29,702 nucleotides of DNA from a virus: positions 1 through 29,702 of IMG/VR virus record IMGVR_UViG_3300040811_000940, one strand, 5' to 3'. Under the pieces are notes generated by a model, which saw only the letters and a list, made by a program, of their open reading frames with translations, was not told the origin of the DNA and made no database searches. Positions 2,907 to 28,008 of the stretch are shown one piece after another. A program made the translations under genes and the position numbers. Positions within the stretch are counted from its first letter, which is position 1, and each line of letters opens with the position of its first letter.

Positions 2907-2921
2907 TAGGGTAAATACAGT

Positions 2922-3362: not shown

Positions 3363-3420
3363 AATTAAATACGCACTTTTTCTATTCAGATAAATATCAT
3401 TAGTAAACAAGGAAAAGCAT
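3363..3420 (+). promoter_or_regulatory. Intergenic leader of gp6 with putative T4-type late promoter (GATAAATA at 3389-3396)
   Basis: This 58-base gap is among the largest in the window. It contains GATAAATA at 3389-3396, one mismatch from the T4 late promoter box TATAAATA, which is recognised by the phage sigma-like gp55 together with gp33 and gp45. A start a few bases downstream would leave a short leader carrying AAGGA at 3409-3413, seven bases before the gp6 ATG. Promoter activity is inferred from the motif and its position; in an AT-rich genome the match could arise by chance. Confidence 0.5.
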
Positions 3421-6400: not shown

Positions 6401-6957
6401 ATGATATCATTTATCATCCAGTAAAATATAAAATACTTTTTGGAAGCAAAGCAAGGCCGAGCTTACAAGTTAAATTCAAAATAGTTAGAAACAAAAATTT
6501 AGTTATTAACGATAATGAATTAAAAGCAGATATTATCGATGCAATAAACAAGTTTTTTGATATTGAAAATTGGGATTTTGGAGAAACATTTTACTTCCAA
6601 GAACTTAGTGCATATATTATGAATCAATTATCACCAAAACTTGTTAGCTTTTTAATAGTTCCAAGACAAACAATTCAGTCGTTTGGTAGTTTATTTGAAA
6701 TAAAAAGCGAACCAGATGAAATTTTTGCAAGTGCAGCAACAGTTGGCGATATTGAAACTATAGATGAAATTACAGCAACACAAATACAATCATCAGGCAA
6801 CGTAATTAGTTCAGCAGCAACTACAGTAGTATCTGGTATAGTATCGAGCGTATCTAATACAACTAATAGCAGTAGCAGTAGCACCAACAATAGCAGTAGC
6901 AATAGTAGTAGCAATAGTAGTAATAATAGCGGTAACAGCGGAGGATATAGTTACTAA
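3421..6957 (+). CDS. gp6: gp6-like baseplate wedge protein, enlarged, with Ser/Asn-rich C-terminal tail
   Basis: 1178 residues against 660 in T4 gp6. The N-terminal part (about 20-115) is alpha-helical and carries conserved gp6 segments such as YLALIDMIAFLGQNLSFRI and ENFLETAERRESVLRLARM. The following region to about residue 1120 is mixed alpha/beta and fits a baseplate J/gp6-type wedge protein with added domains. From about residue 1149 the protein ends in a low-complexity Ser/Asn/Gly tail. In T4, gp6 forms heterotrimers with gp7 that close the inner ring around the hub. The start is supported by AAGGA at 3409-3413. The TAA stop (6955-6957) overlaps the ATG of the giant gene by one base (TAATG), suggesting coupled translation and related stoichiometry. 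Identity as gp6 is firm; the function of the extra length is unknown. Confidence 0.92.
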   Translation: MSATDRQSRLLVAEDWKRIYQSYRNADFQSYDFDNLRRTMINYLRQNYPEDFNDYIESSEYLALIDMIAFLGQNLSFRIDLNARENFLETAERRESVLRLARMLAYNPRRNQAANGLMKINTIKTTENVVDSTGLNLAGITIKWNDQTNSSYFEQFLKIMNSALPVQNSVGNPLKSASIAGVSTQKYKFNSTNTASAIYPFTKRIEGVNTRFEVVSTDIIGDALVEEPPLPGNNPAMLFRDDGQGAGSANTGFFMAFRQGKLDSGKFSITNPTPNQSIAIDAENINNTDIWLYGLNSGGFENAAWTKIDSVEGNNVVYNSLFNSTRDVFAATTRIGDRINLVFSDGVFGNLPAGDFKVYYRTSSGIRAIITPSAIGLVQIEIPYQTRTGSKETLTLGLKLTSTVSNGTATESNEEIKANAPATYYTQDRLVTGEDYNIGPLAVSQEIIKTKSTNRISSGISRYFDLKDASGKYSNTSLFVDDGVIYKENYEEKQTFTFSTQTDIEGAIYNIIEKIIQYPNSKNFYLSQYPKIIVSDLNASWKAVTTETNSYSGILQDVSENAYAVGSFTANSLRLLETGTMIKFVPPAGKHFMPNGTLMDDDGNEHLGKTMYKWVKVMSVTDDGTSINPDSAAGIIINDYIDSGALVEQVIPKYSLRLINDVKTQLIDQAFELRNFALRYDIYDRQWKIVVGEDVNTISNFATGKAGDISGDNLDASWMLYFKTDGQKYTVTYRQTRYVMESEDEIRFFFDNADKIYDPSTGKTVRDKIDILNINRKPGELTPFTRDYSWTITDQYKDSEGYLDSRKIQIQFIDLDDDGVFDDPDIFEQIVGELADSVSIGEKVIFQKKYTTSDGVEDYKFFNNLNNEIVIVQNEAAIAPYSSRTEGQVFYLQDEQIFRKLNKQLNNTQINTDYKAYFGRSNLKFHYVHVADGNFRIDPSSSNIIDTYILTKTYNEQVKQYITGDLLTQPLPPSNDELLRNYGNSINRIKSISDDIIYHPVKYKILFGSKARPSLQVKFKIVRNKNLVINDNELKADIIDAINKFFDIENWDFGETFYFQELSAYIMNQLSPKLVSFLIVPRQTIQSFGSLFEIKSEPDEIFASAATVGDIETIDEITATQIQSSGNVISSAATTVVSGIVSSVSNTTNSSSSSTNNSSSNSSSNSSNNSGNSGGYSY
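6868..6940 (+). repeat. AGY/AAY trinucleotide repeat encoding Ser/Asn tract at the gp6 C-terminus
   Basis: About 24 codons made almost only of AGC, AGT, AAT and AAC encode a Ser/Asn run at gp6 residues about 1150-1173. The codon-level regularity suggests growth by replication slippage, and the tract could differ in length between relatives. On the opposite strand it produces a spurious leucine-rich reading frame, which I do not treat as a gene. Confidence 0.8.
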
Positions 6958-9900
6958 TGGCATATAATGACGATCAAAATGTATCTCCACTTCCGGTGCC
7001 CGGAAAAGATAATAAAATCACAGCATCTGATTTTTTACCTGCATTCTTTAGAACAAAGGCTAACAAAAAGTTTTTACAAGCAACACTTGATCAACTTATA
7101 CAGCCCGGCGTGGCAGAAAAAATAAATGGCTATTACGGCAGAAAAACAGCAAAAGCATATAAACCAACTGACAACTATGTTGCAGATGTTAGTAAAAATA
7201 GAGAAGATTATCAATTTGAACCAGCTGTTGTTATTAAAGACAATTATGATAATGTAACTTTTTATAAAGACTATAATGATTATATGGGACAACTTAATGT
7301 ATTCGGCGCAAATACAGATAATCATAGTAGGATAAACTCACAAGAAACATACGGCTGGAACCCAAATATTGATTGGGATAAATTTGTAAACTTCCGTGAA
7401 TATTATTGGTTGCCGACCGGTCCTTTAAGTATTCCTGTGCGAGGTCAAAGTAGAGAGATTGTTAGTACTTATACAGTTACTACAGAAGATCAAGGAGACA
7501 ATATTGCATATGTGTTTAATGATGGATTAACAAGAAACCCGTCACTAAAACTGTACAGAGGTCAAACATACCGCTTTGAAATTAATACACCTGGACACCC
7601 TCTTGCATTTGCAATTACTAGAAATTTTACACCAGGCAGTGCAGTATTAACTGCTGGTAATGAAGGAATTAGAGGCGAAGGTCTTTTTGATGCAGTATTA
7701 TATGGCAATGAATATGACCAAGGCGAATATATTGTATTACCGTCTAGTGGCAGTGTAACATTTGAAGCTGACGATAATGTTTCAACATTATACCCGGATG
7801 GTATTCGTAAGTTAGGAGATGATGGCGAAGAAGTAGCAGTTGCTTATATTGAAAAAGGAACAATAGAATTTACTATTCCTGCAAACGCTCCTGATAGATT
7901 ATATTATATCAGCAAAAATGAAATCGACACTAGTGGTTTATTTAAAATATATGACATTGAAGAAAATAGTTTTTTAAATGTTACTGATGAAATTTTAGGT
8001 AAGAAAACATATAAAAGTGCAAATGGCGTTGAATTATCTAACGGAATGCAAATTCGATTCCAAGGTGATACTGAGCCAGCATTTTATAATCAAAACAATT
8101 GGTATGTTGAAGGTGTTGGCGACAAGATTAAATTAATTAAAGATCAAGATTTAATTATTCCTGCTGTCTATAGTGAAAATAAGACTGTTCCTTTTGATAG
8201 CGAAGAATTTGATACTTTACCTTTTTCAAATGCAGGAAACTATGCTGCAAATAAAGATTATATAGTTATTAATAGAGCAAGTCAAGATAGGAATGCATGG
8301 AGCAGGTATAATTGTTGGCACCATAAAGATGTAATTTTAGCAAGTTATGAATATAATAATATATCTGAAAACTTAGACGAGTCAAAAAGAGCATTGCGTC
8401 CTATTATTGAATTTGAAGCTGGTCTAAAACTTAATAACTTTGGTGCAAGTGCTAAACAAGATGTTGATTTGATTGACACTTATACTACTGATGTTTTTAG
8501 CACAATCGAAGGCCAAATAGGATACAATATTGACGGTATTGATTTAGCTGAAGGTATGAGAATCTTATTTACTGCTGACACTGACATACGAGTTAGCGGC
8601 AAAATCTTCAAAGTCAAATATGTTGATATTGGAAACAATAGGCAAATATCTTTAATTGAAACTTCGGACACAAATCCAATTGATCTTGAAACTATTTTAG
8701 TTACACAAGGTTTAGTAAATGCAGGTAAAAGTTATCACTACCACGGCGATGCATGGGTAATAGCACAAGAAAAAACAAAAACTAATCAGCAGCCGTTATT
8801 TGAAGTTTGCGATAATGCTGGTAATAGTTACAGTGATCCAGTATACTATCCTCAAACAGACTTTAAAGGAACTAAGTTATTTTCATATGCAGTAGGCGAG
8901 GGTAATGTAGATACTGAACTCGGATTTCCGCTATCATATAGAAATATTGATAATTCAGGTGACATATTGTTTAGTTTTGATTTGTTAAATGATACGTTTG
9001 AATATGAATTAAATAATTCTGTAATTAACGGATCGATTAATGCTGGTTACTTGAAAAAGTATAAAACTTTATCTACATTTGATTATGCAAATGGTTTTAG
9101 TAGCACACCTCAAAAATCTAAACAGTTTGTAGTAAAGGAATATACAGCAACAGATTTAAAATTTAATAACTTTGATATAGATGTATACGATGAATCATCT
9201 TCAATTACTGATTTAAAAGTTGCAGTATTTGTTAACAACAAAATAAAATTAAAAAATACTGATTATATTATTAACACAGACAACAAACTTGCTCAAATAC
9301 AATTTACAACAGACTTAGCTGTTAATGATATTGTTAAAATTAAAACAGATTCTAAGAAAGTAAAAAATTCAAACGGGTATTACGAATTTCCATATAACTT
9401 AGAAAGAAATCCGTTAAATGAAGACATTACACAATTTACGTTAGGCGAAGTAATCGATCATGTAGATAGTATGTTAGAAGATTTACCAAATTTTACTGGT
9501 AAATTTTTAGGACCTAACAACTTAAGAGATTTAGGCGACTTAGATCGTTACGGTAAACGTTTTGTAAAACATAGTGGCCCACTGAATTTGCCACTTTACC
9601 ACATAACAAGCAAAGACTTTAATATTGTTAAAGCAGTAAAATATGCTAAAACTGAATATGCAAAATATAAGAGAAATTTTATTGAAACTGCTACTAACTT
9701 AGGGTTTGACGGAGCAACGAAGACTCATGTAGACTTAGTGTTGTCTACTATTAATAAAGATAAAGTTAAGACACAACCGTTTTATTTCTCAGATATGATA
9801 CCCTATGGTTCATCTAACAGAATTGAATATGCTGTATTAGATTCAAGAACCAAAGATTACCCTTTAACAGATAGTTTTACATTAGACTCACTACAGCCAA

Positions 9901-12900
9901 AAGGATTATTGGTCTATTTAAACCAATCTCTTTTAACACATGGTAAAGATTATAATTTTAATAATCTAGGTTATATTACAATTACTGCTAACCAAAAAGA
10001 AAACGACATAATTGAAATATATGAATATGAATCTTCGGACGGATCTTTTATAGCTCCTACACCATCAAAGTTAGGTCTGTATCCTAAGTATCATCCAATG
10101 GTAGTAATTGATGATACCGTACAACCTAAATATCCTTTAGATCCTAATGTCGCCGGTCCATATAAAATATACGGACAGATTGAAGCCACATCAAAAGAAA
10201 ACGTTAGTACAGAAGCAATTGGGTGGACGTATCCAATTTACACATCTAAAGCAGTTGCAAAATCTATGTCGACAGATGGAAAAGCTCACACTATAACATT
10301 TAATGGTTTAAACACATTATTATACATTCCTAATATTAATAGCACACAAGTTATTTTAGGAAACGACGATGTTGAAATTAATGAATATCCAATAGGTGTT
10401 GCATTTGTAAAAGGACACGACGGAAGTTATATTAAAGCATATAAAGATTATAGAGATCATTTGCTACTTGAATTTGAAAAAAGAATTTATAATAATATTA
10501 AAGTTGAATATTCTAACAACAGATTAGATGTTAATCATTTTATTGGCGGCGAATATAAAACAAATGACTTTAGCCGCCAGGATATAAACAATGCTTTACT
10601 AACTGACTTTCAACAGTGGTTACAAACAAGTTTAAACAATCAAAATTTTAGTAATAATACTTTTTATGATAGAAATAATGATTGGACATTTAACTACTCA
10701 GATACAAACTCTCCAAACGGTAATGAGAATCCAGGATTTTGGAGAGGCATATATCAACATGCATACGATACAGATCGTCCCCACAGCCATCCTTGGGAAA
10801 TTCAAGGCTTTAGTTCAAAACCGTTTTGGTGGAATACAGTATATGGTCCCGCTCCATATACAAGCGATAATTTAATATTGTGGAAAAACATTGAAGAAGG
10901 TAGAATAGCAAATCCAAATAATACTACAGTAGATGAAAAAGTTGCTCGACCTGGCATAACAAGACATTTACCAGTTAGTCAAGATGGTTCTTTACTTTCT
11001 CCATTGCGATCAGGCTACGTACAAGATTTTGTTTTAAATCGTACTGTAAGAAATTTTAAATTTGGTGATCAAAGCCCCGTAGAAAATGCATGGCGCAAAA
11101 GTTCTGAATATCCATTTGCTGTTATGAAAGCAATGCTAGTAAATAATCCTGCAAAAACAATGGGATTAGGTTTTGATGTTTCTAGAATAACTAGGAATTT
11201 AGTAGGTCAATGGACATATACTGAAACTAATAAGCAAATAGTAATTAAAGACTTTTTAGTGCCTAATACTAACGAGTCTACTTTAAGAACAATGACATCC
11301 GGTTTTGTAAATTACATTTATAACTTAGTTGCTAGTGATATTCTAACTGTATATAATAGCTATCAAAATGATTTGAAAAACCTAGATAATCAAATAGGAT
11401 TAAAAATTGCTGGATTTACAAGCAAAGAAAACTTTAATTTAATTTTAGACAGCAGATCGCCAACACAATCTCTTACACGTGACGGCATTTTTATACCCCA
11501 AGAAAATTATCAAGTTTTTCTAAACACAAGTAGTGCAACAGAATTGGCAACATATAGTGGTGTTATTATAGAAAAGGCAGACGTAGGATATGTACTTAGA
11601 GGATATAGTATAGAAAAGCCTTACTTTGAATATTATGAAACAGTGCCTGGATCTTCTTTTTACGAAGTTACAGTCGGCGGCAGAAATGTAAGAGCATCTG
11701 AATTTGCATCCAATGCTGAATACAGATCAGGCGAAGTAATATTTGCTGGAAATAATTATTTTAGAGCTGTTAATAATTTTATTACTGGCGGAAGTATAGA
11801 TAAAACGTTTGATGCTAACACAGTTAAACTACCAGCACTGCCTATAGAAGGCGGCAGGACAGCAAAGTTTAAAAAAGATTTTAGAAGAACAAACGTTAAA
11901 AAACTAAGTTATGGAGCAAAATTTAATACAGTACAAGACACTGTTGATTTTCTGTTGGGATATGCTGCACGTTTAGAAGATATAGGGTTTAATTTTGATA
12001 AATTTGATTCAGAAGCAAACGTTGTAGAAAATTGGAATACTTCAACTAAAGAATTTATGTACTGGACAACTCAAGGCTGGGCTGCAACAGCATTAATTGC
12101 ATTAAGTCCGGGCGCAAACTTTTTAAAATTTAAGAAAGATTACCATGTAGTTGATGATATAAAAGATGCATTTTACGGATATTCAATTCTCAAAGCTTCT
12201 GGAGAATTTTTAGATTCCGATTTTAGTAGTTTATTAAGAAATGAAAATTCTTTTGGGATTGAAATAACAAATACCGATGACGGATTATATCATGCATCAT
12301 TACCATTAGTTCAAAAAGAACATGTTGTACTATTAGATAATAAAACAGTATTCAATGATACTATATATAATCCTAGCACAGGATACAGACAAGAAAGAAT
12401 ACGTGTAAACGGATATAGATCTGATAACTGGAATGGTGGATTAAATATTCCAGGATTTATATTTGACGATGCAAAGTACGGTGATTGGGAAAAATGGAAA
12501 GACTATACAATTGGCGATCTTGTAAAATACAAACAGTTTTATTATGTAGCATTAAGAAATGTTATTGGCGAAGAAAAATTTAATCCTAATTTTTGGTACA
12601 GATTAAATGAGAAACCAGTATCTGAATTAATAACAAACTTTGATTATAGAATTAATCAATTTGCAGATTTTTATGATTTAGACTCTGATAACTTTGATAG
12701 TGAACAACAAAAAATGGCGCAACACTTGTTTGGATATCAAAAACGCCAATATCTTGCTAATATTATCAACGACGATGTAAGCCAATATAAATTTTACAGA
12801 GGTGCTATTTCTGACAAAGGTACTATGCGAGTGTTTACTAATTTGTTTGACGCATTAGGCAACACCCAAGATACTTTAGAATTTTACGAAGAATGGGCAA

Positions 12901-15900
12901 TACAGGCAGGACGATATGGTTCAACAGAAGATGTACAGCAAGTTGAATTTCAACTTAATGACAAAAAGTTTGTAGAGACTTCTCAAGCATTTGAACTTGT
13001 AAAAACATTACCACCTACAAATGTTGACAACCATTACAGAATATTACCAAACGAAGTTTACAGCAAACCAGAAGGTTATGTACATACTCCGTTTCCTACA
13101 AAAGTATTAGATAGAGAATTTGTTAAAACAGGCGGATATGTAAGAAATGAAGATGTCAATTTCCTTGCAGGAGACATTTCAACTTTAACTGGTGTTAATA
13201 TAAACCAAATAGGTTTAGGACAAACAGTTTGGATTACAAATACTGCTAATGATGATTGGGATGTTGCCCAGCTAACAACACCAAATATAAATTGTATTGA
13301 ATTAACTAAGGTTGTAAATATTCCTGTAAATAGAGATTTAACTCCAGGATATATTAGAGTTGAAATTACTACAGACGCATGGGCTGATAATTTAGTCGAT
13401 GTCGAAGATTTTATTGGATTTAAAGCTGCAAATAAATATGACCTTAATGGTCTTTATAAAGTAGCTGCTGTATTATTAGACAAAATAGTAATTGAAATAC
13501 CGTTAGATAACGACATTAATGTATTTGACAGCGAATCGTTTCTTATAGTTAGATTAATTTCTGTTAGGATTCCTACAGTCCCAGAAATTAACACTGTAAT
13601 TGGACAAAATTTATATGAAGGACAAAGGCTCTGGATTGACAAGTATGACGATGACTGGGCAGTATTAGAAAACAGTCCTGCATATTCTAACCAACAAACA
13701 ATTGAAAATCCAGCAGATTACGACAGTACAGATCAAGGGTTTTCTGATAGTATTGCAGTAACAAGTAATAATAATAATGTCTTTGTTTCAGCGCCTAATG
13801 CAGGTAACGGACAAATTTCATATTACAGAAGATCTAGAGATGTAGCTAATTTAAATTTATCACAAGAAATAACTATCGATGAAACTAATTTGTTTAATCC
13901 AGTTAGTTGCGACTTTGGTAAAAGCATAGACGTTTCACCTGATGGCGAATACTTAGTTGTTGGTATTCCAAAAGCAAGTAATATTAAAACTAAGTTAGCA
14001 TATAAAGACGACGGCAATGGTCAACAGACGTTTGATTTCCAACCCGACGCTAGTTATGTTAAGGGTGATATAATACGTTATAGAGAAAGTCTATGGAAAG
14101 CTAATAGAGAAATTTTACCTGAGATAGCTAGTCAGCCTTTTTCAACATTTGACTCTTATATTAACATTGCAAATTCTGCAGATGCAGATAGCACAACACT
14201 AAATTTATTAGTTGCAGGTAATCCTGGGTTAACAAATTATGCTAACACAGATCATATGTTAGTACGTGCTCCTAAAGATCAATATTTAGGAACATCTTTA
14301 GGTGATAGGATTAATTTATTTTGGAATCAACGCAGTTTTTCATATCCGACTTTAGATAATTATATACCGTTTGATGGAGAAATACCAGAACTTAATACTG
14401 CATTTATTACAGGCGAACATACTATTTTGGAAAAAATTGACCACATTATGTTTGTTGATACTTTTGTAACATTGCCTGTAGCGGGTCAACGTATAACTAC
14501 TGACACAGGTAGTGCAGATGTATCCTATGTTGCATTTAAAGGCGACAGTGCAGTTATATATCTTAAAAGTTCAAATGGTATTTTTGATATATCAGGCGAA
14601 CTTTACATTGACGATACTGATTTTGTAGGATTTTATACCGAAGAAGACACATATTCTACATCAAATGCAGTTGGCGGATATTGGCAAATAGCAACACCTA
14701 CATATAATAATAATTCACGTTATTATGATGTAGGAAGAGGGTTAGTGTATGCCGATGTTTTGTTACAATCGTCAGTACGTGACACTAATTTATACTATAA
14801 TGTTCAAGCCACAGTAGGTGATATTGGTTTATATGTAACAAATAAAAATAGGGTTAGCTTTTTATCACACTTGTCATATCGCGGTGATCCAACACCTGCT
14901 GACGGACAAGACGGCGTTGAAGCAGATCAACCAAGTAATAAATGGATAGCACGAGTTGGTAGACAATATTCAGATCAACTTAGTATCGGCGACACTCCAA
15001 CCTTTAATTTTTATAATCTTGATAATAGAGATATTAATTTAGATGCTGCCGGTTTATCTTACGATATTTTAAACAAGCAACATACTGTTATTGATCTATG
15101 GGACGGATATATTGATATAACTCTTAGTGAGTTTGACTTTTCAGGTTTTGCGTTTCAGCCACAAGTTAACGATATAATTGAAGATGTACAAAGTCCAAAA
15201 GATGGACAAGGTGGATTAGCATTAACAACAATTACTACAAGTACAGCATCAGTTGTATATGTACAGCGTAACTTTAATAGTGTTAGATTGTATGTAAAAG
15301 TATTAACTGGTGATTTTGTTGAACAGTCTAATATTGGAAAATATGAAATTAGAAGAAAAGCAAATACTGTACTAAGAGGAGCAACAGATACTGATCGTAT
15401 ATGCGGTACAGTAGAAGACGTAAACAACGATATTGTCGTCCAAACTAGTTTAGTTGGAAAATTAGTAGTCTTTGAACATACTTCTAATTTTAACATTGTA
15501 TCTAATCCTGAAATAATTGATGAAGAATATTCATTCTTTACTGAAGTGACCGAGTCGGGAATATCTAGAAGTTCTAATCCTCCATTTAGTTTAAACAAAG
15601 ATTATACACAAGTGTTTAACATTCCTGCTATGGAATTAGGAATATCTAATGACTTAACAAACGAAGGTGCTGTTGCAATATATAGAAGATTGAATAACGG
15701 CACATATAGAATTAAAGATATATTTGTATCTGAGTATAGAGCAAATAATAGACAGTTTGGTAGCAAAGTTAAGATAGTACAGTCTGGAAATTACTACACA
15801 TTATTAGTAGGAAGTAAAAGCGACAGCGGCATTGCAGAAAATGATTCCGCAGGTAGAAGAACACAGCCAGGGTCAATTGAAATATTCCGCCACGGCGTAT

Positions 15901-18900
15901 CACCGCAGCAAGAATTCCTTGGTGTATATAGACTAAATGCATATTCTAAAGGAGATGTAGTTCTTTATAAAGATGATTATTATGAAGCACTAAAAGATGT
16001 TCCAGAAACTATGAATGAAATATTAAACACAGTTTATTGGAATAAAATTAGTTGGCGTTACGGAAAAGATCCTGAGTTTATGGGCGAGTTTAATAACGCA
16101 TATGCATACAGACAAAATAATATAGTCTCATACGATAATGATTTATGGAAAGCAACAACTAATATTGACGCTGCTAGTGCTGTTCCTTCAAGCACAAATA
16201 ATTCTTGGACATCATTAACTACAAGAATTGACTATGTAGGATATTTGCCAAATTTAACTGCAAATGCATTTTATGATGAAACAGTATTTGATCCGTTAGA
16301 AAATATATTAGAATTTAGTGAAAGTTTTGATGTAAGTGACGATTCGAATGTATTAATCGTAACAACAAAGTTGGCACAGGCTGATAGTACTACTGACTAT
16401 AACATAGTTGTATATAGAGAAATTGATAACAAATATTCAGTATCACAAGTCATACCGGCGCCAGTTGACGGTGATGATTGGGCAAAGTCAGTATCACTAA
16501 GTCCAGATGGAACACAAATAGCAATCGGCGCCCCATTAAACGATGACGTTAAAGTTAATCAAGGCATAGTATATATTTGGACACAAAATAGTGACGGCAT
16601 TTTTAGCCTATCTCAAACAATCAAATCACCTAGTAACGAAGAAAGTGAAAAATTTGGATTTAGTGTTGATTTTGGAAAAGACGATTTACTTATTTCAAGT
16701 TTAAATGGCGATCAAAAAATACCAACAACTTTTGATAAAGATAATGAAATTCAAACTACATTTGATAAAGAGTTTACTACATTTAAGAATACAAAACTAG
16801 ACAAAGGCTTAGTTTATGTTTATGAAAAAATTGGTACTACTTTAGTGTACGGTGAGCAGTTTGTTTATCCAATGACACAAACTACATTTGGTGAAAATGT
16901 TTATTCAGTAAACAATCATGCATATATAGGTGTTCCAACACAATACGTTGATGGCAGAGATCATAAGGGAATTTTACTGAATTATAGGAAGAAACCTAAT
17001 ACAAGGTCATGGAGTATAATAAGTCAGGGTATTACGCCCGTAGATATTAAACAACTTGACGGAGCACTTATTTACAATAAGAGAACCAATAGTATTGTTT
17101 CATACATCGATTATGTTGATATTATACAAGGTAAAATACCAGGTCCGGCTGAACAAGAAATATCTTATAAGTTACCAGCTGATCCTGCGTTCTATAATAC
17201 AGGAACAATAGCTGATCCGTTGGTTGAACCTGATTTAGGATGGACTGACAAGTATGTTGGTAAAGTTTGGTGGAATACCCAAACAGCTAAATTTGTTAAT
17301 CCTTATCAAGGTTCAACAACGTTCCAAAGAGATAATTGGAATAAATTAACACCAAGTTCTGCTATTATTATTTGCGAATGGGTAGAAAGTATTTTCTTAC
17401 CAAGTCGTTGGGATCAATTATCAGGATCAACAGAAGGAACTGCTAATGGAGTAAGCGGAGTGTCGATTTACGGCGACACTAGATATTCTACAAAAATTAC
17501 TTATGATAATATAAGCAAGACATTTAGTAGAAAATATTACTATTGGGTAATTAATAAAAGGACTATTCCAGTTGGCAGAAAACTTAATACTATTACAATT
17601 GCAAATTTAATTTCTAATCCAAGAACTTCTGGATATAAATTTATAAGTTTCTTAGGAAAGGACAAGTTTGTTCTTAATAACTGTAACGATTTAGTACAAG
17701 GTGATGACGTTGTTCTGCAAATTAAATATCACACGTTAGACAAAACTGCACAAAAATATCATAATCAATATAAGTTGTTTGCTGACGGATCTAGCGATAG
17801 TGTACCAGATCCTAGTTTAGAGCGCAAATGGTTTGATAGTTTAATTGGTTTTGACAGTAATGGTAAGGCAGTTCCTGATCCAAACATTCCCGTAAGCATG
17901 AGATACGGCATCCAGTCTAGACCTAGGCAAAGTTTATTTGTTAATAGAACTGAAGCATTAAAACAAGCAGTTGAAAGAATTAATATAGTTTTAAAAGAAA
18001 ACTTAATTACTGACGAATATAATTTAACTAGATTGTCGTATAAAGATGAAATTCCTACAATTAATTCTCAAACATGGGATTTAAGTGTTGACAGTGTAGA
18101 TGAATTACAGTATATTAGTACTAATAAATTGGAGACTGCTGCACTAACTCCTGTTATTGTAAATGGCAACCTTGTAAGAGTTAATATAGATAATTCGGGT
18201 CGTGGATATAAAGCACCTCCTAAAATAAAAGTTATTGGTGCAGGCAAAGATGCAGATATTAAGGTTGAAATTAATAATCTAGGACAAATTACATCGGCAA
18301 CTGTTGTTGATGACGGTATAGGATATAACGATCAAACAACAATCAGTGTTAGACCATTTACAGTACTAGTAACAGCAGATGCTAATATTAATGGTAAATG
18401 GGCTTTATATTCGTACAACACTGGTACCAAAGAATGGTATAGACGAGCATTACAAAGTTTTGATACATCGTTATACTGGGAATATGTAGATTGGTATGCA
18501 GAAGGCTATAATCAATTTACTCCGATTGCAACTAGTATTGAAGGATCTTATCAACTCTTTCCTTTAGATTTAAATATTAACGATGTTGTTAAAATTAATA
18601 ATGTCGGAACTGGCGGTTGGTTATTATTAAGAAAAATTGCTGATGAAAAGACTGAAGATTATACAGTAAATTTTGAAACAATTGGTAGACAAAATGGAAC
18701 GATAAAACTTAAACAAAGTCTTTATAATTTCCTTGAAAATACTGTAGGATTTGATAATAGAAGATTTGATAATACTTTCTATGATAATAATCCTTCTCAA
18801 GAAATAAGAACTATTTTAGAAACTCTTAGAGATAATATTTTTATAGGTAATTTAAAAGTTGAATACAATAAATTGTTTATGTCTTCACTTCGATATTTAA

Positions 18901-21900
18901 TGGCAGAACAACCAACTGTAGATTGGCTGTTTAAAACTAGTTTTGTAAAAGCAAAACATATTAGAGGAACACTAAATCAAGACGATATTACCTTTAACAA
19001 TGACAACTTGTCAAGTTACCAAGAGTTTGTAGAAGAATTTAAACCTTACAAAACTAAACTAAGAGAGTTTGTAAGTAATTATGATGTTCTTGACAATACT
19101 AGTTCTCGAACAACTGACTTTGATTTAAGCCCAGCATATAATGAAGTCACAGGTCGAATTGAATCAAGCACAGCACGTATATTAGACAATGTTATTGTAA
19201 ATGAAAACTTAGATAGTACTGTTAATCCAAGACAAAATTGGAAAAACAATATAGGCCAACAAATAACCGAAATTAAAATCGGCGATGGCGGCAGCGGCTG
19301 GACATTTGAACCAATTGTTAAAATACAAGGCGGCGGTGGCACAGGCGCAACAGCAAAGGCATATCTCGGTTATGGAAAAATAACTAAAATTGAAATTGTT
19401 ACTCCTGGAAGTGGATATACAAGTGCTCCAACTGTTGTAATTGAAGGATCGCAAACCGACGATGGCACTCCTGCAAAGGCAACAGCAGTCTTAGGTAGCG
19501 GATTAGTAAGGTCAACCAAAGTTGCAATGAAGTTTGATCGTAACGCAGGTAGTTATACTTTTGATACACTTGAAGAAACAGAAACACTAACAGGTACAGG
19601 TGCTAGATCAACATACGATTTAATATGGCCGATGGACCTTGATTTAAAGAAAGTTTCAGTTTTAGTTGATGGTGTATTACAATTACGTAGCAAATATACA
19701 TATGAAAATTTTGAAGATACAACAAAAACGTATAATAGAGAAAGAGGCAGAATTAAATTTAATGTTCCTCCTAAACTAAATTCTGTAATAACAGTAAATT
19801 ATTTAAAACCTATAAGTTTATTAAGTGCTGAAGATAGAATTAAATTTGCATACCAACCCGGCGCAAATATGTTTGGTAAAGAGTTGTCTCAGTTACTAGA
19901 TGGTATTGATTATGGCGGAGTAGAAGTACGCAGTTTTGACTTCTCAGGCCCAGCAGGTTGGGATACATCAGGTTGGTATACTGATAATTGGGACACTTTT
20001 GAAAATACATTTGAAGATGAAATTTTTGTATTAGATGGAAGTACAGTTGCTATTGAATTGTCAAAACCTTTAGAAAATACAATTGAGTACAATGTTTACA
20101 GAAACGGTATAAGAATTGACGCAACTGATTTTGTAGCAGGAACACCGGCAGTACCGGGTGTTCCAGCAGTACCTGGTGCGCCAGCAGATGCAGAATACAA
20201 CAATGGTGCATTAATTACTGAGAACAATGGTACAGTGTTTGACAGAGCCTTAACTGTAAACGGATTGAAACTAGTTGTTGCAGGAGCAGTAGGCGGACAA
20301 CTTGCAGTACCAGATGAATGGGCAAAGAAAACTGCAAGAACATTTGAATTAATAACTGATCCTAACGGTGCTGGCATTAACACCACACATCAACGTAACT
20401 TTATTAAAACACTACGTGGTGACGCAGGAACATATCACGCAGGAATACCTGCAATACAAAGAGTTGCATATAACGGTGGTAGTACATATACACCTAACTG
20501 GTTAGAAGATGTTAACGTGGCAAGTTATGCAGGACTACAAGCATTTAATGATAGTGTTGCTCAAAAGGATATGGTATGGTATAAAAATATCAACGGAAAC
20601 AATCCTCCAACACAGCGTAGAGATATTGAAGAAATATTCGAACACGTATTCCACACCGTACACGCATTTGGTATTCCGGGTGCAGTGCCTGGTAGTATAG
20701 ACGCAGTGGAAATGAATCCAGATATTAGAATTAATAATGAACCAAGTTTTGATTGGAAAAACACAGCACTACATTTAGCAATGAAAGAAGCAATTGATGC
20801 AGGATTATATGATCCAAGTGGTTATGCTACTGATTGGAATACAGATCCAGAGAAAGCAGCAGTTGCATACACAGAATACACCTACTTGGTAAACTGGTCA
20901 ATGTGGGATATGAGTGTATACTGGGATGGCGGCAGTCTTAGTCCTGAATGGGATGATAGTTTAAAAACACCAGCAGGTATGTTAGCAAACAACCCATTAG
21001 GTTATGCATTGTTCAATACATACTTTGCCCCAGTGTTGAGCAAACCAGATTTTGCTACAATAGAAAGTATTTTTGGTGAAAATGATACAGGCGTGTCAGG
21101 ATATGTTGTTGATGAATTAGTAGGCGGAACTCCGGAAGTAGCAGCTATTCCGGAAGTTCCGGGATCATCCGCTACTAATCCTAGTGCAACTTGCACTACT
21201 ATTGTAGGTAACGGTGTACAAACTACAATATATCTTGACAATGATGGACTTAATTTAACAAATTTAGTTGATGGCGATGTAATTGCTGTAAGAAAATCTA
21301 CAAGTGATGGAGCAATACAGTTAGATCCAACAAGTTATGATACACAAATTAACGGCGGAGATTTATTATATTCGTCGGCTACTGGTCTAAATGCTGAAGA
21401 CATTGTTGTAGATGGTGACGGATTTGTTACGCCGACAACATCTAAAGGTCCAGAAGAACTTGTACCAGGACAAATACTTGATACGTTAGATATTAAAGTT
21501 TATACTAGAGATAGTGACGGGCAAGGACAAATCTTTAGCCAAAGCTATATTATGGATAGCACATTGACTTATAGTCTTGGCGCACTACCAAGCACTAGTG
21601 ATGCAATATTTGTAAAATTAAACAATCAATTATTACCGAGCACAGATTATACAGTTAATTGGACAGACAAAACTATTACGTTTGCTAGTGCAACAGTAGG
21701 TGCTGAACTTAATATAGTAGCAGCGGCACAAGGAATACAAAGTATACTAGATTTTGGAACGTTAATTACTGACGGAACGTCAGAAGAATACACACTTCCT
21801 ATCAAATATGTAGAAGGAATGCAAGTTTCTGTTACAGTTGACGGTACTCCTAAAACTGTAGATGTTTTAGAAACAGAAACAGTAGGATTATTTGCAGCTA

Positions 21901-23417
21901 TTAGATTTGATGAGGTACAAGATGCAAATAAAACTATTCACTTTACAGCATTTGGTAATTCAGATACTGTAAATTATAGTCAAATTACTAAAGATACATT
22001 TACCGGTAACGGCACGTTAGCTGATTTTGAATTACTACAATCGCCGTTTTACTCAATTCCAACAGAACACAACTTAATTGTAAAAGTAAATAATACAATT
22101 TTAAAAGCAGGATACAATGTTGAATTTGTAATTCCGCAAGCAGGACAAAAAGAATTTGCTGTTGAAACATTCCAGCATCCGTCAGGAAGTCTTGAAGTTA
22201 ATGATATTAAAGTATTCTTAAATGGAATTGAAAAAACTACACCAATTGACTGGAGATTTGAAATTTCAAATAGTAGTATTATATTTGCAGATGATGTAGG
22301 CGTCCCGGGAGATGTTGTTGATATATTTGTAATTACTGACGGTGATTATAGAGTTACAGGCAAAACGGTTACATTTGACACACCCCCTGCATTGGATGAT
22401 ACTATTGAAATATTCCAATTCTCTAATCACAATATAATTGACATTGATAGAATTAACTATGATGTTGTATCTAGAAAACTAATGTCTCCAGATGAATTAG
22501 ATTATGTAAATTATATTAGATTAACAACTGGTGAAATTAGTTTACGCTCGCCTGCTCCTGATGCACAGTATGTTTGGGTATCTGTAAATAACGAATTGTT
22601 AACACCTAGTGTTGATTACTATGTTACTAATGACGGTATGAAAGTAAGATTAATTAGACAACCGTCAACTAACGATAAAATTGATGTTATACATTTTACT
22701 TCTCCTGTAAGTAAGCCTAAATTTGCATTTAGACAGTTTAAAGATATGTTAAATAGAACACACTTTAAGCGTTTAGATGCACCGGCTACTAAATTAGCAA
22801 ATCCGTTAAATTATTATGATTTAAGAATTGAAGTAGAAGATGCAAGTATGTTGTCAGAACCAAATAAGCCTCAAAATTTACCAGGTATTGTTTTTATTGA
22901 CGGCGAACGTATTGAATATTTTGTAAAAGAAGGTAATATATTACGTCAATTACGCAGAGGAACGCTAGGAACAGGAGTTAAAAACTTACATGCAGCAGGA
23001 TCAAAGGTATTTGATCAAAACGTAAGTAAAACTGTTCCGTACACAGATGCTACAATGACACATACGTTTAGAGAAGAAGTTGACGGTGCGCAAACAACGT
23101 TTGCTATACCATTTACAGTTGATTCGGTTAATGAAGTTGAAGTATTTGTTGGCGGAATTAGACAAAGAAAAAATACGTTGGAGGTATTTGATCCAACAAT
23201 AGCACTTGATAGTCCAGAAGGCGATGTTACACATTCGATTGATTTTACTATTAGTGCAAATGCGTTAATACTTACTAATGCGCCTGCAGAAGGAACAGCA
23301 GTAACAGTAGTGAAAAAACAAGGAAAAAGCTGGACAGAGTCGGGTGTATCATTAGGTGATTCAAAAAATGCAATATCTAGATTCTTACGTGCCGGCACAA
23401 CAGAGCTACCTGAATAA
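6957..23417 (+). CDS. Giant modular virion structural protein (5486 residues), probable outer baseplate/fibre scaffold
   Basis: One open frame without internal stops. ATG overlaps the gp6 stop and GGAGG lies at 6940-6944. Modules by approximate residue: 1-150, conserved N-terminal region (SDFLPAFFRTKANKKFL; WNPNIDWDKFVNFREYYWL); 190-310, cupredoxin-like beta-sandwich; 752-800 and 973-1030, beta repeats of the form VxVFVNxxxL; 1259-1400, Trp-rich segment (RPHSHPWEIQGF, WWNTVYGPAPYTS); five CBM5/12-like units between 1589 and 3087; seven FG-GAP-like blades from 2263 to 3345; two GxGY blocks near 3742-3801 and 4103-4186; an alpha-rich insertion at 4394-4738; beta repeats to 5462 with a conserved GERIEYF...LRRGTLGT segment at 5295-5345. 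It sits where T4 encodes gp7 and other wedge genes. The family appears, from memory, in marine T4-like phages as a virion structural protein; I cannot equate it with gp7. Very few Cys and no membrane segment. Confidence 0.85.
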   Translation: MAYNDDQNVSPLPVPGKDNKITASDFLPAFFRTKANKKFLQATLDQLIQPGVAEKINGYYGRKTAKAYKPTDNYVADVSKNREDYQFEPAVVIKDNYDNVTFYKDYNDYMGQLNVFGANTDNHSRINSQETYGWNPNIDWDKFVNFREYYWLPTGPLSIPVRGQSREIVSTYTVTTEDQGDNIAYVFNDGLTRNPSLKLYRGQTYRFEINTPGHPLAFAITRNFTPGSAVLTAGNEGIRGEGLFDAVLYGNEYDQGEYIVLPSSGSVTFEADDNVSTLYPDGIRKLGDDGEEVAVAYIEKGTIEFTIPANAPDRLYYISKNEIDTSGLFKIYDIEENSFLNVTDEILGKKTYKSANGVELSNGMQIRFQGDTEPAFYNQNNWYVEGVGDKIKLIKDQDLIIPAVYSENKTVPFDSEEFDTLPFSNAGNYAANKDYIVINRASQDRNAWSRYNCWHHKDVILASYEYNNISENLDESKRALRPIIEFEAGLKLNNFGASAKQDVDLIDTYTTDVFSTIEGQIGYNIDGIDLAEGMRILFTADTDIRVSGKIFKVKYVDIGNNRQISLIETSDTNPIDLETILVTQGLVNAGKSYHYHGDAWVIAQEKTKTNQQPLFEVCDNAGNSYSDPVYYPQTDFKGTKLFSYAVGEGNVDTELGFPLSYRNIDNSGDILFSFDLLNDTFEYELNNSVINGSINAGYLKKYKTLSTFDYANGFSSTPQKSKQFVVKEYTATDLKFNNFDIDVYDESSSITDLKVAVFVNNKIKLKNTDYIINTDNKLAQIQFTTDLAVNDIVKIKTDSKKVKNSNGYYEFPYNLERNPLNEDITQFTLGEVIDHVDSMLEDLPNFTGKFLGPNNLRDLGDLDRYGKRFVKHSGPLNLPLYHITSKDFNIVKAVKYAKTEYAKYKRNFIETATNLGFDGATKTHVDLVLSTINKDKVKTQPFYFSDMIPYGSSNRIEYAVLDSRTKDYPLTDSFTLDSLQPKGLLVYLNQSLLTHGKDYNFNNLGYITITANQKENDIIEIYEYESSDGSFIAPTPSKLGLYPKYHPMVVIDDTVQPKYPLDPNVAGPYKIYGQIEATSKENVSTEAIGWTYPIYTSKAVAKSMSTDGKAHTITFNGLNTLLYIPNINSTQVILGNDDVEINEYPIGVAFVKGHDGSYIKAYKDYRDHLLLEFEKRIYNNIKVEYSNNRLDVNHFIGGEYKTNDFSRQDINNALLTDFQQWLQTSLNNQNFSNNTFYDRNNDWTFNYSDTNSPNGNENPGFWRGIYQHAYDTDRPHSHPWEIQGFSSKPFWWNTVYGPAPYTSDNLILWKNIEEGRIANPNNTTVDEKVARPGITRHLPVSQDGSLLSPLRSGYVQDFVLNRTVRNFKFGDQSPVENAWRKSSEYPFAVMKAMLVNNPAKTMGLGFDVSRITRNLVGQWTYTETNKQIVIKDFLVPNTNESTLRTMTSGFVNYIYNLVASDILTVYNSYQNDLKNLDNQIGLKIAGFTSKENFNLILDSRSPTQSLTRDGIFIPQENYQVFLNTSSATELATYSGVIIEKADVGYVLRGYSIEKPYFEYYETVPGSSFYEVTVGGRNVRASEFASNAEYRSGEVIFAGNNYFRAVNNFITGGSIDKTFDANTVKLPALPIEGGRTAKFKKDFRRTNVKKLSYGAKFNTVQDTVDFLLGYAARLEDIGFNFDKFDSEANVVENWNTSTKEFMYWTTQGWAATALIALSPGANFLKFKKDYHVVDDIKDAFYGYSILKASGEFLDSDFSSLLRNENSFGIEITNTDDGLYHASLPLVQKEHVVLLDNKTVFNDTIYNPSTGYRQERIRVNGYRSDNWNGGLNIPGFIFDDAKYGDWEKWKDYTIGDLVKYKQFYYVALRNVIGEEKFNPNFWYRLNEKPVSELITNFDYRINQFADFYDLDSDNFDSEQQKMAQHLFGYQKRQYLANIINDDVSQYKFYRGAISDKGTMRVFTNLFDALGNTQDTLEFYEEWAIQAGRYGSTEDVQQVEFQLNDKKFVETSQAFELVKTLPPTNVDNHYRILPNEVYSKPEGYVHTPFPTKVLDREFVKTGGYVRNEDVNFLAGDISTLTGVNINQIGLGQTVWITNTANDDWDVAQLTTPNINCIELTKVVNIPVNRDLTPGYIRVEITTDAWADNLVDVEDFIGFKAANKYDLNGLYKVAAVLLDKIVIEIPLDNDINVFDSESFLIVRLISVRIPTVPEINTVIGQNLYEGQRLWIDKYDDDWAVLENSPAYSNQQTIENPADYDSTDQGFSDSIAVTSNNNNVFVSAPNAGNGQISYYRRSRDVANLNLSQEITIDETNLFNPVSCDFGKSIDVSPDGEYLVVGIPKASNIKTKLAYKDDGNGQQTFDFQPDASYVKGDIIRYRESLWKANREILPEIASQPFSTFDSYINIANSADADSTTLNLLVAGNPGLTNYANTDHMLVRAPKDQYLGTSLGDRINLFWNQRSFSYPTLDNYIPFDGEIPELNTAFITGEHTILEKIDHIMFVDTFVTLPVAGQRITTDTGSADVSYVAFKGDSAVIYLKSSNGIFDISGELYIDDTDFVGFYTEEDTYSTSNAVGGYWQIATPTYNNNSRYYDVGRGLVYADVLLQSSVRDTNLYYNVQATVGDIGLYVTNKNRVSFLSHLSYRGDPTPADGQDGVEADQPSNKWIARVGRQYSDQLSIGDTPTFNFYNLDNRDINLDAAGLSYDILNKQHTVIDLWDGYIDITLSEFDFSGFAFQPQVNDIIEDVQSPKDGQGGLALTTITTSTASVVYVQRNFNSVRLYVKVLTGDFVEQSNIGKYEIRRKANTVLRGATDTDRICGTVEDVNNDIVVQTSLVGKLVVFEHTSNFNIVSNPEIIDEEYSFFTEVTESGISRSSNPPFSLNKDYTQVFNIPAMELGISNDLTNEGAVAIYRRLNNGTYRIKDIFVSEYRANNRQFGSKVKIVQSGNYYTLLVGSKSDSGIAENDSAGRRTQPGSIEIFRHGVSPQQEFLGVYRLNAYSKGDVVLYKDDYYEALKDVPETMNEILNTVYWNKISWRYGKDPEFMGEFNNAYAYRQNNIVSYDNDLWKATTNIDAASAVPSSTNNSWTSLTTRIDYVGYLPNLTANAFYDETVFDPLENILEFSESFDVSDDSNVLIVTTKLAQADSTTDYNIVVYREIDNKYSVSQVIPAPVDGDDWAKSVSLSPDGTQIAIGAPLNDDVKVNQGIVYIWTQNSDGIFSLSQTIKSPSNEESEKFGFSVDFGKDDLLISSLNGDQKIPTTFDKDNEIQTTFDKEFTTFKNTKLDKGLVYVYEKIGTTLVYGEQFVYPMTQTTFGENVYSVNNHAYIGVPTQYVDGRDHKGILLNYRKKPNTRSWSIISQGITPVDIKQLDGALIYNKRTNSIVSYIDYVDIIQGKIPGPAEQEISYKLPADPAFYNTGTIADPLVEPDLGWTDKYVGKVWWNTQTAKFVNPYQGSTTFQRDNWNKLTPSSAIIICEWVESIFLPSRWDQLSGSTEGTANGVSGVSIYGDTRYSTKITYDNISKTFSRKYYYWVINKRTIPVGRKLNTITIANLISNPRTSGYKFISFLGKDKFVLNNCNDLVQGDDVVLQIKYHTLDKTAQKYHNQYKLFADGSSDSVPDPSLERKWFDSLIGFDSNGKAVPDPNIPVSMRYGIQSRPRQSLFVNRTEALKQAVERINIVLKENLITDEYNLTRLSYKDEIPTINSQTWDLSVDSVDELQYISTNKLETAALTPVIVNGNLVRVNIDNSGRGYKAPPKIKVIGAGKDADIKVEINNLGQITSATVVDDGIGYNDQTTISVRPFTVLVTADANINGKWALYSYNTGTKEWYRRALQSFDTSLYWEYVDWYAEGYNQFTPIATSIEGSYQLFPLDLNINDVVKINNVGTGGWLLLRKIADEKTEDYTVNFETIGRQNGTIKLKQSLYNFLENTVGFDNRRFDNTFYDNNPSQEIRTILETLRDNIFIGNLKVEYNKLFMSSLRYLMAEQPTVDWLFKTSFVKAKHIRGTLNQDDITFNNDNLSSYQEFVEEFKPYKTKLREFVSNYDVLDNTSSRTTDFDLSPAYNEVTGRIESSTARILDNVIVNENLDSTVNPRQNWKNNIGQQITEIKIGDGGSGWTFEPIVKIQGGGGTGATAKAYLGYGKITKIEIVTPGSGYTSAPTVVIEGSQTDDGTPAKATAVLGSGLVRSTKVAMKFDRNAGSYTFDTLEETETLTGTGARSTYDLIWPMDLDLKKVSVLVDGVLQLRSKYTYENFEDTTKTYNRERGRIKFNVPPKLNSVITVNYLKPISLLSAEDRIKFAYQPGANMFGKELSQLLDGIDYGGVEVRSFDFSGPAGWDTSGWYTDNWDTFENTFEDEIFVLDGSTVAIELSKPLENTIEYNVYRNGIRIDATDFVAGTPAVPGVPAVPGAPADAEYNNGALITENNGTVFDRALTVNGLKLVVAGAVGGQLAVPDEWAKKTARTFELITDPNGAGINTTHQRNFIKTLRGDAGTYHAGIPAIQRVAYNGGSTYTPNWLEDVNVASYAGLQAFNDSVAQKDMVWYKNINGNNPPTQRRDIEEIFEHVFHTVHAFGIPGAVPGSIDAVEMNPDIRINNEPSFDWKNTALHLAMKEAIDAGLYDPSGYATDWNTDPEKAAVAYTEYTYLVNWSMWDMSVYWDGGSLSPEWDDSLKTPAGMLANNPLGYALFNTYFAPVLSKPDFATIESIFGENDTGVSGYVVDELVGGTPEVAAIPEVPGSSATNPSATCTTIVGNGVQTTIYLDNDGLNLTNLVDGDVIAVRKSTSDGAIQLDPTSYDTQINGGDLLYSSATGLNAEDIVVDGDGFVTPTTSKGPEELVPGQILDTLDIKVYTRDSDGQGQIFSQSYIMDSTLTYSLGALPSTSDAIFVKLNNQLLPSTDYTVNWTDKTITFASATVGAELNIVAAAQGIQSILDFGTLITDGTSEEYTLPIKYVEGMQVSVTVDGTPKTVDVLETETVGLFAAIRFDEVQDANKTIHFTAFGNSDTVNYSQITKDTFTGNGTLADFELLQSPFYSIPTEHNLIVKVNNTILKAGYNVEFVIPQAGQKEFAVETFQHPSGSLEVNDIKVFLNGIEKTTPIDWRFEISNSSIIFADDVGVPGDVVDIFVITDGDYRVTGKTVTFDTPPALDDTIEIFQFSNHNIIDIDRINYDVVSRKLMSPDELDYVNYIRLTTGEISLRSPAPDAQYVWVSVNNELLTPSVDYYVTNDGMKVRLIRQPSTNDKIDVIHFTSPVSKPKFAFRQFKDMLNRTHFKRLDAPATKLANPLNYYDLRIEVEDASMLSEPNKPQNLPGIVFIDGERIEYFVKEGNILRQLRRGTLGTGVKNLHAAGSKVFDQNVSKTVPYTDATMTHTFREEVDGAQTTFAIPFTVDSVNEVEVFVGGIRQRKNTLEVFDPTIALDSPEGDVTHSIDFTISANALILTNAPAEGTAVTVVKKQGKSWTESGVSLGDSKNAISRFLRAGTTELPE
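7524..7886 (+). other. Cupredoxin-like beta-sandwich module within the giant protein (residues about 190-310)
   Basis: Residues 199-214 read LKLYRGQTYRFEINTP, followed by GHPLAF and, about 80 residues later, IEFTIPANAPDRLYYI. This pairing of a strand-turn 'RGQTYxF' with a later 'xFxIPxxAPxxLYYxS' resembles cupredoxin-type or periplasmic copper-protein folds. The Cys and Met ligands of true copper proteins are not evident, so a purely structural role is likely. Fold assignment is by motif only. Confidence 0.4.
11721..11831 (+). other. CBM5/12-like module 1 (residues about 1589-1625)
   Basis: YRSGEVIFAGNNYFRAVNNF fits the start of the chitin-binding type 3 (CBM5/12) pattern, Y-x2-G-[DE]-V-[IV]-x4-x-Y-x-A. 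The usual closing Trp is not obvious, so this is the weakest of the five copies. Confidence 0.35.
12501..12611 (+). other. CBM5/12-like module 2 (residues about 1849-1885)
   Basis: DYTIGDLVKYKQFYYVALRN, then Asn-Pro-Asn-Phe-Trp with Trp1880, matches the CBM5/12 layout of a GD[IV]V strand, an aromatic pair, an Ala strand and a closing Trp after a short loop. In other proteins these domains bind chitin or related polysaccharides through exposed aromatics. Binding here is inferred. Confidence 0.5.
14046..14141 (+). other. CBM5/12-like module 3, at the start of the propeller insertion (residues about 2364-2395)
   Basis: ASYVKGDIIRYRESLWKANR matches the Gly-Asp-Ile-Ile strand, aromatic-x4-Trp and Ala pattern. 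It lies just after blade 2 of the propeller, so it may be displayed on its surface. Confidence 0.45.
15942..16055 (+). other. CBM5/12-like module 4 (residues about 2996-3033)
   Basis: YSKGDVVLYKDDYYEALKDV followed by a closing Trp at 3028 (VYWNKISW) is a close match to the chitin-binding type 3 pattern. It sits between propeller blades 3 and 4. Confidence 0.5.
16101..16217 (+). other. CBM5/12-like module 5 (residues about 3049-3087)
   Basis: YAYRQNNIVSYDNDLWKATT, ending with NNSWTSL (Trp3084), is a second copy in tandem with module 4, separated by about 16 residues. The Asp of the GD strand is Asn here. Confidence 0.45.
18180..18359 (+). repeat. GxGY beta repeat block A (residues about 3742-3801)
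   Basis: Two half-repeats, IDNSGRGYKAPPKIKVIGAG and TSATVVDDGIGYNDQTTISV, share the pattern of a strand, Gly-x-Gly-Tyr, a short Pro- or Thr-rich turn and a second strand. Similar GxGY-x-xxP units occur in other phage structural proteins. The block is related to block B at 19263-19514. Confidence 0.6.
19263..19514 (+). repeat. GxGY beta repeat block B (residues about 4103-4186)
   Basis: KIGDGGSGWTFEPIVKIQGG and EIVTPGSGYTSAPTVVIEGS are two copies joined by a Gly/Ala-rich hairpin. The motifs align with block A, pointing to duplication inside the giant gene. Confidence 0.65.
20136..21170 (+). other. Alpha-rich insertion domain with EHxxH motif, bracketed by Pro-Val-Gly linkers (residues about 4394-4738)
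   Basis: The linker AGTPAVPGVPAVPGAPA (4394-4410) and a related linker GGTPEVAAIPEVPGSS (4723-4738) bracket about 310 residues unlike their surroundings. The interior is rich in helices, Trp and Ala and contains EEIFEHVFHTVHAFG with Glu4562, His4563, His4566 and His4569. It is followed by LHLAMKEAIDAGLY and a segment from about 4615 to 4690 rich in Trp and Tyr. The clustered His/Glu on one helix could bind metal, and I loosely associate this pattern with phage-borne peptidase-like domains, but it is not the standard HExxH zincin order. A catalytic role is unproven. Confidence 0.5.
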
Positions 23418-26108: not shown

Positions 26109-26111
26109 TAA

Positions 26112-28004: not shown

Positions 28005-28008
28005 AAAC

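Follow-up and report, generated by a model that had tools for sequence, protein, structure and literature searches.

The gene at positions 6957 to 23417 of the viral sequence analyzed here (the window, a virus record of 29,702 bases) probably encodes one giant wedge protein in the baseplate of a jumbo-type myovirus and lies after gp6, where T4 has gp7. Residues 1 to ~2000 and ~3345 to 4077 of this protein would form a conserved structural core. This core is most likely attached to gp6 and makes up the periphery of the wedge in place of gp7 and perhaps also of gp8. Long internal and C-terminal stretches would expose surface modules that can be exchanged (CBM5/12, FG-GAP type, cupredoxin-like, and a module of ~320 aa) and that probably touch extracellular matter or the surface of the host. 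Few phage machines are understood as well as the baseplate wedge, yet in a whole branch of the jumbo-type myoviruses it seems to be made with a single chain of 3,300 to 5,600 aa that shows no link to gp7 or gp8 of T4. A structure of the giant chain would tell whether gp7 has been replaced or is only disguised.

The giant gene and its surroundings

The giant gene starts with an ATG at 6957, ends with a stop at 23417, encodes 5,486 aa, and has zero internal stops. It was assigned by its frame and by a profile match to the family phrog_10938 and is located on the plus strand, as are gp6, the following gene, and the regions of the giant protein given below. The preliminary description had reported a single uninterrupted frame of 5,486 codons that fills over half of the window and follows gp6 with an overlap of one base, and this was confirmed. 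The gene takes up 16,461 of the 29,702 bases (55%), and the TAA of gp6 (3421 to 6957; a baseplate wedge subunit that matches phrog_10646 with an E value of 1.4e-286 and phrog_219 with 2.6e-23) ends on the A at 6957 that also starts the ATG of the giant gene. With the base composition of the giant gene itself, 5,486 open codons would occur by chance with a probability of ~10^-202, and the second-longest frame overlapping 6957 to 23417 has 176 aa (frames of at least 80 aa considered). An assembly artefact joining separate genes, which had been named as the finding that would overturn the description, was ruled out. Two further IMG/VR contigs agree with the window without gaps, one with 99.991% DNA identity over 6974 to 29196 (L099) and one with 99.980% over 395 to 20585 (L018), their samples being possibly related to that of the window, and the relatives described below are single frames. 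Therefore, the giant frame is real.

The following gene (23438 to 24040) encodes 200 aa and matches the profile of phrog_11259, a family with no assigned function. The window also contains genes for a gp5-like hub and a gp25-like wedge protein as well as three fibre-like or structural genes. The gp5-like hub (429 to 2906) has a VgrG3-like C terminus (Pfam T6SS_VgrG3-like_C, E 7.5e-31), and the same Pfam scan gave no match to a T4-type lysozyme family. The three consecutive genes at 24054 to 29529 are likely a paralogous set, with N termini that are similar by eye (LLENF...P..G..W.D) and matches of all three to phrog_15511 and phrog_14394. A Ser/Asn-rich tandem repeat (6865 to 6934, period 6/12), unlike the remainder of gp6, closes the gp6 gene.

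A giant structural family of jumbo phages

The window gene belongs, as a long version, to an already known family of giant structural proteins, phrog_10938; such a gene is standard in the lineage and no singularity. The N-terminal half of the protein had phrog_10938 as its sole PHROG match (E 4.4e-228), and the C-terminal half matched the same family (E 4.8e-67) in addition to repeat-driven matches. The PHROGs category of phrog_10938 is "head and packaging." When residues 1 to 2000 were used in a tblastn search, 60 of 50,697 phage records were matched, 58 of which are 284 to 490 kb in size. Each of the eight jumbo isolates examined has a homologue encoded by a single annotated CDS (3,326 to 4,555 aa), and hmmsearch with the core regions matched all eight. 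Named members of the family are RaK2 ORF070w, GAP32_230, CBB_236, PA5oct gp355, and Atu_ph07 gp180, and the family is also present in SCTP-2.

Most of residues 1 to 2015 and 3345 to 4077 of the window protein have homologous counterparts in the isolates. These stretches include an N-terminal block present in all eight isolates (residues 1 to 170; 6957 to 7466), the strongly conserved block of the family (residues 1147 to 2015; 10395 to 13001), and its second conserved block (residues 3345 to 4077; 16989 to 19187). The window protein is 931 to 2,160 aa longer than the versions of the eight isolates, mainly via its C terminus and the long internal region from residue 2020 to 3345 (13014 to 16991), for which tblastn gave no match in the phage collection even at an E value of 1e-3. 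It also differs from them in carrying the mobile module described below. The C-terminal part (residues 4800 to 5486; 21354 to 23414) is kept in the IMG/VR relatives and partly in PA5oct.

Two scans of the viral contigs yielded at least 575 and at least 573 confirmed relatives. Among 160 fetched IMG/VR loci, not all of which are distinct contigs, the longest frame was closed at both ends in 72 (60 distinct starts), and 71 of these 72 frames are 4,561 to 5,583 aa long. Thus, the exceptional size claimed for the gene holds in comparison with T4, whose gp7 has 1,032 aa, but not within the lineage. The sole exception among the closed frames, L069, is broken once, into frames at 6938 to 13921 and 13759 to 21702; this split of the giant frame (6938 to 21702) is either a sequencing error or genuine. 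Removal of near-copies left 58 frames that were aligned and found to be conserved over nearly their full length.

The position of the gene is conserved as well. All 75 IMG/VR loci that could be tested, 67 of them distinct, have gp6 upstream. Its stop lies at most 28 bases ahead of the earliest possible start codon of the giant gene and at most 13 bases past it, and the one-base overlap seen in the window recurs in 58 of the 75. Also, the giant gene lies directly 3' of gp6 in seven of the eight isolates, and CBB_236 is beside gp6 according to the genome record. The exception is SCTP-2 (L004), where gp6 is matched at 231 kb and the giant gene is located at 127.8 to 139.2 kb, ~92 kb apart; therefore, adjacency is not obligatory. 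In SCTP-2, a gene encoding 3,096 aa precedes the giant gene instead of gp6.

Occurrence in virions has been reported for two relatives. The record of PA5oct gp355 carries the note ESI-MS/MS, and the CBB paper lists 21 unique peptides of CBB_236 (PMC5259590). A "structural protein" of 4,455 aa directly after a wedge protein of 1,198 aa in Sinorhizobium phage AP-J-162, as given in PMC11242549, fits the family. ORF070 is not named in the available part of the RaK2 paper (PMC3622015), nor is gp180 in that of the Atu_ph07 paper (PMC6102473), and the accessible part of PMC6892783 holds nothing on the family or the module. Going by titles and the beginnings of abstracts, no description of a function of the phrog_10938 family or of the module was recognized among the papers listed by the literature searches.

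Surface modules and repeats of the giant protein

The preliminary description had proposed carbohydrate-binding and propeller modules, and both were indeed found in the long internal region. CBM_5_12 was matched at residues 3048 to 3084 (16098 to 16208) with 29.7 bits (Pfam cut-off, 26.2), and FG-GAP_2, a propeller-type module, at residues 3171 to 3207 (16467 to 16577) with 30 bits (cut-off, 23). When residues 2020 to 3345 of the window protein and 28 relatives were searched at an E value of 0.01, FG-GAP_2 was present in 28 and CBM_5_12 in 25 of the 29 members. Judged by these profile matches, the FG-GAP and CBM5/12 modules are real.

Residues ~166 to 337 (7452 to 7967) have a predicted cupredoxin-like fold. 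This domain was modelled with AF2 within residues 1 to 1100 (59 sequences, pLDDT 74.6) and gave VIA Z scores of 8.9 to 10.2 over ~100 residues in the best 50 rows listed, with a best Foldseek E value of 4.8e-4. Loop 226 to 278 of the domain has a pLDDT of <50, and the expected cupredoxin ligand loop reads, by eye, LYYISKNEIDTSGLF.

GSGY-type repeats are located at residues ~3728 to 3813 and ~4098 to 4190 (the latter at 19248 to 19526) and recur in several giant phage proteins, including the cyanophage giants. The repeats at 19248 to 19526 attract matches to Hc2 and baseplate wedge families in giant proteins and are a possible source of wrong annotations. The window protein itself matches phrog_460 ("head closure Hc2") and phrog_438 ("baseplate wedge"), but these matches extend over the stretch of GSGY repeats and were disregarded. 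In phrog_438, the stretch best matched by the window protein is at positions 190 to 275, which is the GSGY-repeat part; T4 gp8 matches phrog_438 at positions 3 to 86 and also matches phrog_977.

Comparison with the wedge proteins of T4

The window gene shares with T4 gp7 and gp8 the position directly after gp6, but its product is five times as long as T4 gp7 and has no homology to either above threshold. It had been suggested that the polypeptide merges scaffold and peripheral-baseplate roles at a position where T4 has the separate genes 7, 8, 9, 10, and 11, and profile searches of consecutive slices against gp7, gp8, and gp10 had been proposed as a check. Such a comparison was run with 13 region profiles and did not support derivation by a merger of these T4 proteins: hhalign probabilities against T4 gp7, gp8, gp9, and gp10 were at most 6.7% (at most 1.7% for gp8 alone), and addition of the jumbo homologues to the region profiles gave no better values. 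Homology to T4 gp7 to gp10 above threshold was not detected by PHROGs, Pfam, BLAST, hmmsearch, or hhalign; in PHROGs, the window protein matched neither gp7 nor the gp8 core nor gp10 (phrog_958), and gp11 was not matched above threshold by BLAST or hmmsearch. As a positive control, the N terminus of cyanophage gp7 was linked to T4 gp7 with an hhalign probability of 95.8%, and jumbo gp6 was linked to T4 gp6 with 38.7%. Thus, links of this kind can be found by the test, though its sensitivity is limited. Pfam Gp7_5th was matched below its cut-off (E 0.011 and 0.027; 18.4 versus 27 bits over 23 residues) and, at an E value of 0.01, in 1 of 29 members.

The gp6 profile was present in all 12 genomes searched (eight jumbo phages, T4, and three cyanophages). 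Two gp7 profiles matched all four T4 or cyanophage genomes, with short stretches in the cyanophages, and none of the eight jumbo genomes; one of the two, phrog_964, was not free of control matches (1 of 14 genomes). gp8 was found at full length in the three cyanophages and in pieces in T4, and neither form was detected in the eight jumbo genomes. Matches of the gp8 profile in Atu_ph07 and Phosso sit within the giant gene and cover profile positions 185 to 301 only. With a gp10 profile, a clear match was obtained in PA5oct and a weak one in the Vibrio phage, and the gp10-like gene of PA5oct is a separate gene further downstream. The scaffold or wedge role proposed earlier is thus favored by a gp6 in all eight jumbo genomes along with no gp7 and no full-length gp8 in any of them, a pattern that would fit replacement; but this argument rests on absence, which is weak evidence because of the limited sensitivity (38.7%) and the control match of phrog_964.

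A PDB sequence search with the halves of the protein and three family profiles gave only E values of 0.08 to 0.23, one of the matches being the chitin-binding domain of a chitinase. In a fold search with residues 1 to 1100, T4 wedge chains were absent among the rows listed, and since one domain filled this list, the search says little about a wedge fold. No wedge protein was a convincing match to the N-terminal model; Foldseek placed 9f4b_FA, a chain from the baseplate cup of a Klebsiella phage, at rank 3 (E 3.3e-3, probability 0.57, TM 0.06), and the best BFVD rows for residues 1 to 1100 were family members of uncultured phages and of Atu_ph07, some of them named "YHYH domain."

Comparison with the giant gp7 of cyanophages

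Giant proteins encoded in the same gene position are found in cyanophages (P-SSM2 gp7, 5,195 aa; S-B43, 4,337 aa; Syn33_092, 6,376 aa). Like the window protein, the giant gp7 of the Kyanoviridae, including Syn33_094, comes after gp6 and has GSGY repeats, and S-B43 and Syn33_094 carry the mobile module at 44 to 49% identity. Homology between the core of the window protein and cyanophage gp7 was not found; the GSGY repeats match with hhalign probabilities of 29 to 37%. There is a weak and unconfirmed hint of similarity between window residues ~5280 to 5350 and residues 64 to 126 of cyanophage gp7 (hmmsearch 1e-3, hhalign 7.5%), and another such hint between region 2500 to 2960 and both Syn33_094 (5e-5) and Syn33_096 (1e-4). 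In contrast to cyanophage gp7, with its 95.8% link to T4 gp7, the window protein has no such link.

Role of the giant protein

Gene position and exclusion argue for a gp7-like wedge role. On the sequence comparisons, the giant protein holds the place of gp7 and probably does its job, and kinship or fusion is unsupported.

If the giant gene merely lay beside gp6, its product could be a peripheral appendage such as a whisker, a spike, or a fibre-like adhesin. The surface-binding types of its modules, the lack of a profile link to gp7 or gp8, and the distance of the giant gene from gp6 in SCTP-2 would agree with this, as would the whisker-like structures of unknown gene origin described for CBB (PMC5259590) and apparently also present in Atu_ph07 (PMC6102473). 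However, the core of the protein and, in all 75 testable loci, the gp6 junction are conserved, and both gp7 profiles are unmatched in the eight jumbo genomes, and we therefore consider an appendage rather unlikely. Alternatively, the polypeptide might be a precursor from which several wedge proteins of conventional size are released at assembly. In line with this would be the gene annotated as ATP-dependent protease next to that of the giant protein in RaK2, GAP32, PBECO4, and CBB, the prohead protease encoded by RaK2 (PMC3622015), and the peptide coverage of only 7.72% for CBB_236 (PMC5259590); but the single frame in eight isolates and in 71 of 72 closed IMG/VR frames makes it quite improbable. 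A true fusion of T4-type gp7, gp8, and gp10 that has diverged past recognition, to which gene position, the missing gp7 and full-length gp8 matches in the jumbo genomes, and the subthreshold Gp7_5th matches could be ascribed, is hardly credible given hhalign values of no more than 6.7% for all 13 regions against gp7 to gp10 when the cyanophage gp7 control reached 95.8%, the separate gp10-like gene of PA5oct, and a Gp7_5th match of 23 residues, below cut-off, in a single member.

A mobile module in wedge and other proteins

Apart from its probable wedge role, the giant protein contains a module of ~320 aa (residues ~4411 to 4735; 20187 to 21161) that is flanked by Pro/Val/Gly-rich linkers. As judged from sequence comparison, this module is exchanged between proteins, and the exchange is the new part of this analysis. 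Of the 58 aligned relatives, 56 are without the module and have a slot of 99 to 121 aa; the slot has ~430 aa only in L128, L173, and the window. The G+C content of residues 4404 to 4768 is 0.40, versus 0.328 in the rest of the gene. The core of L128 has an identity of 0.51 to that of the window (rank 26 of 58), but its module is 89% identical, with flanks at 48% and 41%, and sits ~30 residues further along the host sequence than that of the window. L103, the nearest of the 58 relatives (core identity, 0.70), is without the module. An incomplete but closer relative, L021, has 94.5% DNA identity to the window over 395 to 20144. At 19751 to 20018 of L021, the slot starts with a module of the other type, L173-like by eye and 58% identical to that of the window. 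In this position, L021 apparently carries an allele class of the module other than that of the window; because its locus ends there, it may instead be a chimera.

In the phage collection, the module was present in 85 of 50,697 records, all of them Synechococcus phage, Cyanophage, or Prochlorococcus phage by name, and in S-B43 and Syn33 it lies within proteins annotated as baseplate proteins. The cyanophage isolates Syn33, S-RIM2, and S-B43 offer the module for study. From 92 viral module loci, 80 were kept, and the carriers in these were 29 giants of the phrog_10938 type, 37 proteins like the subtilase-like frame of L258, 12 others, 1 protein matching the cyanophage giant, and 1 short frame. 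One of the 12 others, the carrier in L183, is a wedge protein of the gp7 type that matches phrog_17744 (E 1.3e-99), a family also matched by T4 gp7 (E 3.6e-4); the module of this carrier has 93.5% DNA identity to that of the window. The carriers in L187 and L185 match tail-fibre and structural families. Bacterial genome contigs, for which binning errors are possible, contained 13 relatives of the module. Five of these are short proteins with lipoprotein-like starts by eye (two from Flavobacteriaceae and three from Actinomycetota or Acidimicrobiia), one of which is encoded on a contig of 1.13 Mb. The others are one short protein from Opitutaceae and two from gammaproteobacteria, two subtilase-like frames from a Rhodobacteraceae bin, a frame of >2,970 aa, and two fragments.

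When carriers of the five kinds were placed on a tree with 69 rows of the module, 12 changes between them were needed; for the giants, no fewer than 3 are required by well-supported branches. Chimeric contigs could mimic such a spread. Indeed, 31 of the 80 loci end within the module, as happens with shared repeats during assembly, and L269, a contig of a Pirellulaceae bin, begins inside a 100% identical piece of the module; for single contigs, a chimera may thus be the cause. However, isolate cyanophage genomes carry the module, and its copies in wedge, fibre-like, and subtilase-like carriers (L183, L185, L187, and L195; the module clade of the window) have 90 to 94% DNA identity. Therefore, chimeras are unlikely to be the full cause of the spread.

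The module was not matched in Pfam, NCBIfam, PHROGs, or a PDB sequence search. Its model (29 sequences, pLDDT 79, pTM 0.79) gave a best Foldseek E value of 0.42. By VIA, the first 22 of 32 rows were zinc peptidases, many of them repeat entries of few proteins, with PPEP-3 as the top row (Z 6.7 over 171 residues, rmsd 5.1), and Z values of <8 may reflect a common arrangement. The predicted fold thus weakly resembles that of zinc metallopeptidases of the PPEP/M34, M30, and M1 types. In the alignment of 29 rows, HExxH is absent, and the invariant pattern is E156..E159-H160..H163-T164.H166 (module numbering). Since this pattern differs from HExxH, we do not claim that the module is a peptidase; it may hold a metal site in a long helix. 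An intein was considered and dropped, because by eye the same alignment has no conserved nucleophile at the start and no His-Asn at the end; moreover, copies in bacteria are also found as the terminal domain of short proteins.

We tentatively propose, as a somewhat doubtful reading, that residues ~4411 to 4735 are a new enzyme domain of metal-site-like type, not named in the libraries searched, which is passed on as a cassette among surface lipoproteins of bacteria and virion proteins of phages that are not related to each other, the latter proteins being of the giant wedge, gp7-type wedge, subtilase-like, and fibre-like kinds. If so, giant wedge proteins would be platforms for swapping enzymes that process host surfaces. 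The module offers a testable case of domain traffic between bacterial surface proteins and virion proteins. In L201 (5479 to 8037), a subtilase-like phage protein has the module inserted within its subtilase domain, by eye between the Asp and His motifs.
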